This document shows, piece after piece, positions 34,083-36,258 of a DNA stretch of 36,258 nt. The number at the start of each line of letters is the position of its first letter. The first letter of the stretch is position 1. The position numbers and the translations under genes were made by a program. The notes under the pieces were generated by a model. That model worked only from the letters and a program-made list of their open reading frames with translations, searched no databases and was not told the DNA's origin. This stretch comes from an uncultured Muribaculaceae bacterium. GTDB taxonomy: Bacteria; Bacteroidota; Bacteroidia; Bacteroidales; Muribaculaceae. The stretch spans positions 1 to 36,258 of the forward strand of contig CANQRV010000026.1 in NCBI GenBank assembly GCA_947626355.1, given 5' to 3'.

Positions 34083-34116
34083 TTGACTCTTCACTCTTGA
34101 CTCTTAATTGAAAGCC

Positions 34117-35322
34117 ATGGCCACCATCAAACCCAAATTCCGCCCTTCCTCTGTCGCCGACCTCGAGGGCACAATCTACTATCAGATCATCCATGATCGC
34201 AAGGTGCGACAGCTGCTTACCGACTACCGCGTCTTCCCCTCCGAGTGGGACGAGCGCCGCTCGGCCGTCACCACCACCCAGCGCAGCGAGCGCAAGGCCC
34301 TCATCCTCTCAATCCGCGAGCGCATCCGCTGGGACATGGAGCGACTGTCGAAAATCGGCCGCCGTCTCGATGCCGTAGGCCTGGAATACTCCGCCGACGA
34401 CCTCATCGACGAGTTCAACCGCTATGAGCATGAATACTCCCTCTTCAATTTCATGGAGGGCATAATCGTCAGCCTCAAGCAGAACGGCAAGCTACGCACT
34501 TCCGAGACCTACCGATCCACCCTCAACAGCTTCAGGAAATTCAGGAGCGACGAAGACATCATGCTCGACTCCATCACCTCCCGCACCATGCAGGACTTCG
34601 AGGCCTGGCACCGCCGCCGCGGAGTCACCTCCAACACGATCTCCTTCTATACCCGGATCCTCCGGGCCGTCTACAACCGTGCCGTGGAAGACGATATAAT
34701 CGAAGACCGCTTCCCCTTCCGCCATGTCTACACCGGCGTCGACAAGACAGTGAAGCGCGCCCTCCCACTCGCCGTAATCAAGAAGATAAAGCTTCTCGAC
34801 CTCTCGATGACCCCGCAGCTCGACTATGCCCGCGACATGTTTCTGCTCAGCTTCTACCTCCGCGGCATGAGCTTCATCGACATGGCCTTCCTGAAAAAAA
34901 CCGACCTGAAAGGCGGCTACGTCACCTATTGCCGGCGAAAGACCGGCCAGCGCCTCATCATCGAGTGGACGAAGGAGATGCAGGGTATCCTCGACAAATA
35001 TCCCGAGAACAGCACCGACTACCTCCTGCCGATCATCCGAAGCACCGGCATCAACGAGCGGTGTTCCTACCGCAACACCGGCTACAACATCAACTACAGC
35101 CTGAAGCAGATCGCCGGGATGGTGGGCGTCGCCATCCCCCTGACGCTATACGTCGCCCGCCACAGTTGGGCCTCCGCCGCCAAAGCCAAGGGCATCCCTA
35201 TCTCCGTCATCTCGGAAGGCATGGGCCACGACAGCGAGTCGACAACCCGCATCTATCTGGCCTCACTCGACACCTCTGTCGTCGACCGCGCCAACAGCCT
35301 TATCCTCAAATCCCTGAAATAA
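34117..35322 (+). CDS. Tyrosine recombinase (phage-integrase family, SAM-like N-terminus)
   Basis: 401 aa from ATG 34117. The N-terminal arm domain (about 1-95), a SAM-like core-binding domain (about 100-205, SETYRSTLNSFRKFRS ... VTSNTISFYTRILRAVYNRAVED) and the catalytic domain follow the usual order of Bacteroidota site-specific recombinases. Catalytic residues: Arg249 (YLRGMSF), Lys275 (RRKTGQ), Arg348 (YVARHSWAS), His371 (GMGHDSE), Tyr380 (RIYLASL). The first His of the HxxR box is Tyr345 here, a substitution I associate with this clade. It ends 829 bases before a UpxY-like gene, the position of the recombinases next to capsule loci in Bacteroides, so promoter inversion is its most likely job. 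I see no sign of an integrated element around it. Confidence 0.92.
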   Translation: MATIKPKFRPSSVADLEGTIYYQIIHDRKVRQLLTDYRVFPSEWDERRSAVTTTQRSERKALILSIRERIRWDMERLSKIGRRLDAVGLEYSADDLIDEFNRYEHEYSLFNFMEGIIVSLKQNGKLRTSETYRSTLNSFRKFRSDEDIMLDSITSRTMQDFEAWHRRRGVTSNTISFYTRILRAVYNRAVEDDIIEDRFPFRHVYTGVDKTVKRALPLAVIKKIKLLDLSMTPQLDYARDMFLLSFYLRGMSFIDMAFLKKTDLKGGYVTYCRRKTGQRLIIEWTKEMQGILDKYPENSTDYLLPIIRSTGINERCSYRNTGYNINYSLKQIAGMVGVAIPLTLYVARHSWASAAKAKGIPISVISEGMGHDSESTTRIYLASLDTSVVDRANSLILKSLK

Positions 35323-35573: not shown

Positions 35574-35605
35574 AAATCCGGCACCCATACGGGCGCCGGA
35601 TTTCC
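35574..35605 (+). terminator. Hairpin terminator downstream of the recombinase gene
   Basis: AAATCCGGC (35574-35582) pairs with GCCGGATTT (35595-35603), with an inner CCC/GGG pairing across the loop. The T tail is short (TTTCCTAT), so termination efficiency is uncertain. Confidence 0.5.
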
Positions 35606-35849: not shown

Positions 35850-35866
35850 ATCTCTTCGGAAGAGAT
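35850..35866 (+). repeat. Left inverted repeat of a candidate invertible promoter segment
   Basis: ATCTCTTCGGAAGAGAT, 17 bp. It is the exact reverse complement of 36024-36040, and is itself nearly palindromic (8+1+8), like a recombinase crossover site with two binding half-sites. Confidence 0.7.
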
Positions 35867-35935
35867 CTGGATGACTCGCAAGTTATGGATATTGAGCACC
35901 TTAGCAAACCGGCGCAAGGCGATTTGCTAAACATT

Positions 35936-35958
35936 CCTCCGATCGGAGGTTCCTTTTT
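35936..35958 (+). terminator. Palindrome with T tail inside the candidate invertible segment
   Basis: CCTCCGATCGGAGG (35936-35949), a perfect 14-bp palindrome, is followed by TTCCTTTTT. In the present orientation it would stop transcripts entering from the recombinase side before the promoter at 36003. The stem has no natural loop, so efficiency is uncertain. Confidence 0.45.
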
Positions 35959-36002
35959 ATCAAAAATTATGTGAAAATGACCGCTTTTTCGGAATAAATT
36001 CG

Positions 36003-36010
36003 TATCTTTG
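36003..36010 (+). promoter_or_regulatory. -7 element pointing at the UpxY-like gene
   Basis: TATCTTTG followed by CAGC is the consensus Bacteroidota -7 element. There is no TTTG at the -33 position (sequence near 35980 is GACCG), so this promoter may be weak or need help. It lies inside the 157 bp between the inverted repeats, 12 bases from the right one. Transcription would begin near 36017 with a 135-base leader. Confidence 0.65.
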
Positions 36011-36023
36011 CAGCAAAATAAGT

Positions 36024-36040
36024 ATCTCTTCCGAAGAGAT
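36024..36040 (-). repeat. Right inverted repeat of the candidate invertible promoter segment
   Basis: ATCTCTTCCGAAGAGAT, complement of the left copy at 35850-35866. Here the palindrome is extended by GT/AC to 10+1+10 (36022-36042), so in RNA it would also form a strong hairpin at the very start of the leader. Confidence 0.7.
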
Positions 36041-36091
36041 ACCTGAACACGAGGCCCGCAGGGCCGACCCCACTTTTCGGAGATCTGACAC

Positions 36092-36132
36092 AAAACGATT
36101 TGCAATTGCCTGATTACCAATTGAAACGTTTT
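36092..36132 (+). other. Leader hairpin ahead of the UpxY-like gene
   Basis: AAAACGATTTGCAATTG (36092-36108) pairs with CAATTGAAACGTTTT (36118-36132) apart from two bulged bases, with a loop of about 9. It ends 20 bases before the ATG and is a candidate recognition structure for a UpxY/LoaP-type antiterminator, whose action in Bacteroides needs the 5' leader. Confidence 0.5.
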
Positions 36133-36151: not shown

Positions 36152-36258
36152 ATGTCCGAAACCCAAATCCATATCTCTTCTCAGCCCCTCTGGTTCGTGC
36201 TAAACCACATCCCGCGCCCCGGCGAGCTCTCCGCCGAGCGTGAGGTGGCCCGATACAA
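36152..36258 (+). CDS. NusG/UpxY-like antiterminator, 5' end only (runs off the window)
   Basis: 35 codons and two bases are visible: MSETQIHISSQPLWFVLNHI then PRPGELSAEREVARY. The W-[FY]-V-L motif followed by a helix rich in Glu, Arg and Tyr is the N-terminal opening of NusG-like (NGN domain) proteins, and the extended polar start before it resembles the UpxY/LoaP group. In Bacteroides UpxY is the first gene of capsule operons and lets polymerase read through the long operon. With only 35 residues the assignment is tentative, though the setting (recombinase upstream, hairpin leader) supports it. Confidence 0.6.
   Translation, partial: MSETQIHISSQPLWFVLNHIPRPGELSAEREVARY

Follow-up and report, generated by a model that had tools for sequence, protein, structure and literature searches.

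The window (contig C26, 36258 bases, the whole stretch of DNA analysed here) carries a probable phase-variable promoter switch at positions 35850–36040, and we place the probability of this reading at about 0.87. In the proposed mechanism, the recombinase encoded at 34108–35322, or a close paralogue, would bind the ATCTC arms of two 17-bp sites. Strand exchange within the 7-bp centre, for which identity at both sites would be required, would then turn the 191-bp segment around. Two further copies of the segment, on contigs C48 and C53 of the same genome, would be served by this enzyme as well. In the sequenced orientation (ON), the promoter would read into a UpxY-like gene, and the antiterminator encoded there would let transcription through a surface polysaccharide operon presumed to lie beyond the contig end. 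After inversion, the promoter would face a hairpin and the recombinase gene from its 3' end, leaving the operon silent (OFF). From the sequence, we infer the inversion at this locus, the enzyme responsible, the operon beyond the contig end and the effect on the capsule.

The presumed invertible segment is supported by the repeats, the promoter box and the comparison with C48 and C53. The left site is ATCTCTTCGGAAGAGAT at 35850–35866 on the forward strand (ATCTC-TTCGGAA-GAGAT), and the right site at 36024–36040, on the reverse strand, is its exact reverse complement. All 17 bp match in inverted orientation with 157 bp in between, exactly as the initial annotation had described the repeats, their spacing and the 191-bp segment. 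No further copy of the 17-mer with up to three mismatches was found in the window, and the chance expectation of 17-mer matches in the window was 0.10 (shuffle mean). Each copy is a near-perfect palindrome, and the asymmetry is confined to the middle base. The 5-bp arms (ATCTC and GAGAT) flank a 7-bp centre, TTCGGAA in the window, which is the same at both ends. At the core site of a tyrosine recombinase, the enzyme binds the arms and exchanges the centre. Judged by this layout, the 5-7-5 palindrome is a site of the tyrosine-recombinase type.

The predicted promoter is marked by TATCTTTG at 36003–36010 on the forward strand, a match to the Bacteroidota −7 box TAnnTTTG, 13 bp ahead of the right site. 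The consensus is named in the accessible text of PMC3090145. This box is the sole TAnnTTTG of the segment and is directed at the ORF from 36152; the other strand of the 191-bp segment has none. Both statements of the initial annotation on this box were confirmed, and its proposal that the sequenced orientation is ON is consistent with the direction of the box. A short terminator-like hairpin with a T run (35936–35949, forward strand) lies in the segment, upstream of the promoter and codirectional with it; its fold is −7.7 kcal/mol, and the terminator scan found 3 sites of this type against 1.1 expected. Between the recombinase gene and the segment, a strong terminator-like hairpin is present at 35574–35603, according to an inverted repeat and a fold z-score of −4.07; it is absent from the list of the terminator scan.

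The tyrosine recombinase gene reported just upstream of the segment was recovered at 34108–35322 on the forward strand. According to the Pfam matches and the catalytic residues, it encodes a recombinase of 404 aa, the presumed invertase, with arm-binding, SAM-like core-binding and catalytic domains. The listed start is TTG, and an ATG lies three codons further in. The ORF is open, and the catalytic R, K, R, H and Y are kept in the window protein and nine relatives; the first His of the catalytic set is replaced by Tyr in the same proteins. Integrases of mobile elements are also composed of arm-binding, SAM-like and catalytic domains. The window recombinase, having the same domains, might therefore belong to a mobile element as its integrase, with the repeats as remnants of its attachment sites. 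An integrated element is bordered by attachment sites in direct repeat, whereas the window repeats are inverted, lie 174 bp apart (35850 to 36024) and enclose a promoter. ARAGORN detected no tRNA gene in the window, and other genomes have the same layout next to surface genes. An integrase with attachment-site remnants is thus scarcely credible here, and an invertase acting on a promoter segment is preferred.

Forty relatives of the recombinase with 58–83% identity were fetched together with their flanks. They comprise the 20 best-scoring ones (G290 was skipped for an internal stop) and 20 hand-picked further down; the site in L255 and the promoter match in L236 were known before the choice. 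A matched 5-7-5 pair lies within 1.6 kb downstream in 17 of the 40 relatives and upstream (up to 1.6 kb) in none of the 40, the upstream control stretches of several relatives being shortened by contig ends. The downstream pair is absent in the other 23, where some regions contain N runs or contig ends. The arms near these recombinases vary, with CACTC in L245 and TACTC in L252. Two tandem pairs with different centres lie behind one recombinase in L234, L236 and L238, and the nearer centre is often TAAAYAA. In the genome of the window, contig C22 (L163:2468–3673) encodes a paralogue 49% identical to the window recombinase, with a variant inverted pair, CTCTC-TCCTTAA-GAGAA, at +82 and +266 bp downstream. 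Genome G139 has five sites and no recombinase match at E ≤ 1e-40, which counts against a strict link between site and recombinase.

The site pattern ATCTCTTNNNAAGAGAT is present in 128 of 397 Muribaculaceae genomes, and the reversed control pattern in 3. Among the matches listed for this family, 20 adjacent inverted pairs were found, 164–415 bp apart; this set omits G039 and G003, where neighbouring codirectional pairs have identical centres. Across the loci, the central three bases differ (12 classes), and within a pair they are exact reverse complements in 20 of 20 cases. Shuffled pairing gave a mean of 2.1 and a maximum of 10 centre matches in 100,000 trials. Partners with one or two mismatches, found at sites initially taken for single ones (e.g. 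L167, L171, L177, L184, L194), also have matched centres. Such coupling is required for strand exchange through the centre. A recombinase relative lies directly beside the pair in six of the 20 loci (L200, L201, L202, L203, L205, L208). In this gut family, pairs of ATCTCTTNNNAAGAGAT with complementary centres provide a searchable signature of phase-variable surface loci.

The palindromes might instead be operators or RNA leader hairpins, and not recombination sites. In the sequenced orientation, the right site is predicted to fold into a hairpin of 9 bp close to the transcript's 5' end. The fold of 36017–36100 has −20.9 kcal/mol, and an equally good one was obtained in 3 of 200 shuffles. Each copy is palindromic and folds at the predicted mRNA 5' end, and single sites are found at the same place behind promoters, as an operator or a leader would have it. 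However, such a function gives no reason for centres that are variable between loci and yet matched in every pair, and it leaves the linkage to recombinases without a reason. We therefore consider it very improbable as a replacement for recombination; the palindromes may have a second role as operator or leader beside recombination.

In the order-wide set, where the own family makes up four of 295 genomes, ATCTCTTNNNAAGAGAT occurs in 18 of the 295 and the control in 4. Eleven of the 17 order-wide loci examined have no partner (fewer than three mismatches) and no promoter, so that most matches outside the family look like chance. Partners are present in L268, L272, L273 and L277; of the other two, L276 is at a contig end, and L279, close to one, adjoins a recombinase relative. 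The exact 17-mer of the window occurs in 113 stretches of the genome collection, with pairs in L053, L066 and L124 among the 80 matches listed. Of these exact-17-mer loci, 15 were viewed by eye, and L070 and L106 have one site beside a promoter-like stretch. L093 and L117 were considered as a split pair and rejected, as they represent one gene end present on two contigs. The remaining listed single exact 17-mers, many of them in unrelated bacteria, are taken for chance.

The ORF toward which the promoter is directed starts at 36152 on the forward strand and is cut by the contig end (36152–36258, MSETQIHISSQPLWFVLNHIPRPGELSAEREVARY, 35 codons). Its 35 residues, with a guessed 36th, match the N-terminus of a UpxY-like family of about 335 aa, of which 75 proteins were found, the query included. 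Against these 75 proteins, the best local match is 39% over 36 residues (E 2e-5), and the profile of the family gives 13.0 bits; the match is weak because the residues are so few. A full-length relative, L165:3516–4529, reaches 55.4 bits with the UpxY model NF033644. As this is below the cut-off of 100, the name UpxY-like is used. A UpxY search at E ≤ 1e-12 was negative for the own genome but gave matches in 141 of the 149 genomes covered.

The surroundings of the sites were compared in 25 pairs (the window, the 20 listed pairs, L165, L166, L053 and L066). The TAnnTTTG box is located 11–16 bp inside one site in 23 of the 25 and is absent in L205 and L066. A UpxY-class gene or fragment lies beside 14 of the 25 pairs. 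These are the window, L165, L197, L198, L200, L201, L202, L205, L208 and L214, and also L199 (a fragment), L204 (a fragment at a contig edge), L211 (a weak match) and L066, which was recognised by our own profile and not by NCBIfam and whose ORF is cut by the locus end. Five of the 14 are above the NCBIfam UpxY cut-off (L197, L200, L202, L201, L214). The capsule-type antiterminator named in the initial annotation is thus supported by the weak match of 35 residues to the family and by these neighbours. In the window, L200, L208 and L214 the promoter faces the UpxY-class gene, and in L165, L197, L201 and L202 it faces the other way. In L213:5100–7300, the promoter segment lies between two divergent polysaccharide export genes, and in L216:2767–9770 between two divergent SusC genes; by their gene arrangement, these segments look like an either/or choice instead of on/off. 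An extra codirectional site within 100 bp is present in L203 (sites 6102, 6194 and 6381) and in G003:C2 (sites 61698 and 61732), and such sites could give deletions or alternative inversions.

The two other copies of the segment in the own genome are both located at contig ends, at C53:21046–21178 and C48:1–87. Over 77 bases, C48 is identical to the window segment; outward from the site, its flank has 92% identity over 163 bp. C53 is 96% identical to the window segment over 123 bases, with a flank identical over 21 bp. In C48 and C53 the promoter is aimed at the shared outer flank, and in the window it points away from the shared flank; both contigs break within the segment, with one readable side each, and the arrangement may be an assembly artefact. 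This opposite orientation is what an inversion exactly at the 17-bp sites would produce. The nearest long ORFs on the readable side of C48 and C53, that of the shared flank, run opposite to the promoter, so that both copies are read as OFF. No recombinase is present on the readable side of either. The centre CGG is common to C26, C48 and C53, and the readable parts of the segments are 96–100% identical, which would permit exchange between the three. The centre rule predicts which loci of one cell could recombine together, and the three copies here share CGG.

The reversed copies also bear on whether the window segment is a locked relic, that is, a former inverton now fixed ON. In favour of a relic, single-site loci with the promoter 13–15 bp before the site do exist in relatives (L106, L169, L175, L288). 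On the other hand, both window sites are perfect and their centres are matched, the recombinase ORF is open with its catalytic residues kept, and C48 and C53 have the other orientation. A relic is thus unlikely. The invertible promoter proposed in the initial annotation is supported by the matched-centre pairs in relatives, the linkage to recombinases and the constant position of the promoter, and also by C48 and C53, in which the segment is reversed relative to the shared flank.

A group of fusion proteins and their association with the sites is more surprising than the switch. In the own genome, C31 (L162:3001–4542) encodes a fusion of 513 residues. Its N-terminal part resembles the core-binding and catalytic region of the recombinase, and its C-terminal part is UpxY-like. 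The search for this fusion gave at least 90 proteins, the query included, which, where named, are called phage integrase SAM-like domain-containing protein or hypothetical protein; the fusion is present in 28 of 198 Muribaculaceae genomes. No UpxY–integrase fusion was found in the titles or abstracts among the literature matches listed. According to the alignment of 12 fusions with ten active recombinases, the catalytic Tyr is lost in all 12 fusions (Phe in 10) and the Lys is also lost in all 12. The first Arg is kept in one fusion and is Gly in the other 11; the second Arg is kept in 4 of 12, and the His in 1 of 12. The UpxY-like half scores 37.8 bits (C31), 49.7 bits (L205R) and 54.5 bits (L208R) against the UpxY model, below the cut-off of 100. 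A profile search of solved structures with the fusion gave weak matches only. The best row is a chain labelled RaiA (E 0.00048, positions 23–185); Cre is matched at positions 53–178 (best E 0.0043), and uL24/KOW-type chains near 409–457 (best E 0.0087).

Fusion genes adjoin an ATCTC site pair in L205:6476–7951, L208:6573–7931 and L066:2–1516. An ATCTC-type site lies within 450 bp upstream of the gene in 11 of 30 fusion loci (seven as matched pairs) against 1 of 29 UpxY loci (Fisher p 0.0025). The comparison set is the top-scoring end of the plain UpxY genes (30 loci, one of them dropped for its short upstream sequence). As it is selected in this way and uneven in kinship, the difference is a lead and not proof. 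A leader site general to all fusion genes was rejected, because 19 of the 30 fusion loci, C31 among them, are without one. In L106:3629, L169:1501, L175:1501 and L288:1312, a single ATCTC-type site with no partner within 900 bp stands 13–15 bp behind TAnnTTTG. A fusion gene follows in L175 and L288, and an ordinary UpxY gene in L106 and L169. Thus, some of the sites upstream of fusion genes are single and not invertible. Purine-rich stretches (GGAGGGTCG or GGGGGAA-like) were seen by eye shortly ahead of the fusion genes in L281, L285, L288, L290, L298, L299 and L307.

The antiterminator RfaH uses an ops element. From the sites upstream of fusion genes and the single sites behind promoters, we put forward, tentatively and as a rather doubtful possibility, that the site also serves as a loading address, much like ops. 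With the promoter just ahead of it, the ATCTC site would lie right where transcription begins. The dead recombinase half might bind it there and so bring the antiterminator to RNA polymerase at the operon that encodes it. A site occupied in this way could also be protected from the active invertase, which would keep the switch ON, and the single sites ahead of fusion genes would be pure address sites. If the fusions read the same sites, they would be a direct protein link from a DNA switch to transcription antitermination.

Among the known systems, the Mpi serine invertase of the B. fragilis polysaccharides is an example of one recombinase that may act on several promoter segments with the same repeat. 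One enzyme for several segments may likewise hold for C26, C48 and C53; the adjoining enzyme in the window, however, is a tyrosine and not a serine recombinase. The large-capsule promoter of B. fragilis controlled by Tsr19 is inverted by a tyrosine recombinase encoded nearby, according to the accessible text of PMC3090145. The nearby tyrosine recombinase and the TAnnTTTG box are alike in the window, a likeness by description and not by repeat sequence. In the accessible text of PMC11892184, UpxY genes are enriched as regulatable neighbours, and site-specific integrases as non-regulatable neighbours, of some Bacteroidota inverton groups of the hCom2 community (126, 136 and 137). These groups share both neighbours with the window, as compared by description and not by motif. 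The same text reports previously unpublished repeat motifs of Bacteroidota, and the ATCTC arm class could be among its supplementary motifs.

The closest likeness is to the promoter repeats GTTAC-N7-GTAAC and GCTAC-N7-GTAGC of B. thetaiotaomicron, B. xylanisolvens and P. distasonis in the accessible text of PMC12118408. Like the window sites, they are 17-bp palindromes, 5-7-5 on our own reading of the printed sequence, and the printed consensus has variable centre letters, like the ATCTC class. The segments also lie upstream of UpxY or S-layer operons and beside integrase or tyrosine-type invertase genes. The sizes are about 280–290 bp in B. xylanisolvens and 164–415 bp between ATCTC sites. 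Unlike the repeats printed there, the ATCTC class is found mainly in Muribaculaceae, and its arms, ATCTC/GAGAT, differ from the GTTAC/GTAAC of B. fragilis and B. thetaiotaomicron, so that it is outside the GTTAC class. The open-licence literature gave no paper with the window 17-mer, which supplements may list, and none with both "Muribaculaceae" and "inverton" or both "Muribaculum" and "invertible". The new site family suggested in the initial annotation stands in part: the 17-mer is absent from the open-licence literature searched and the arms differ, whereas the 5-7-5 layout is already described in the accessible text of PMC12118408. As the layout equals that of the Bacteroides and Parabacteroides sites, the ATCTC sites form a new class by their arms and not a new kind of site.
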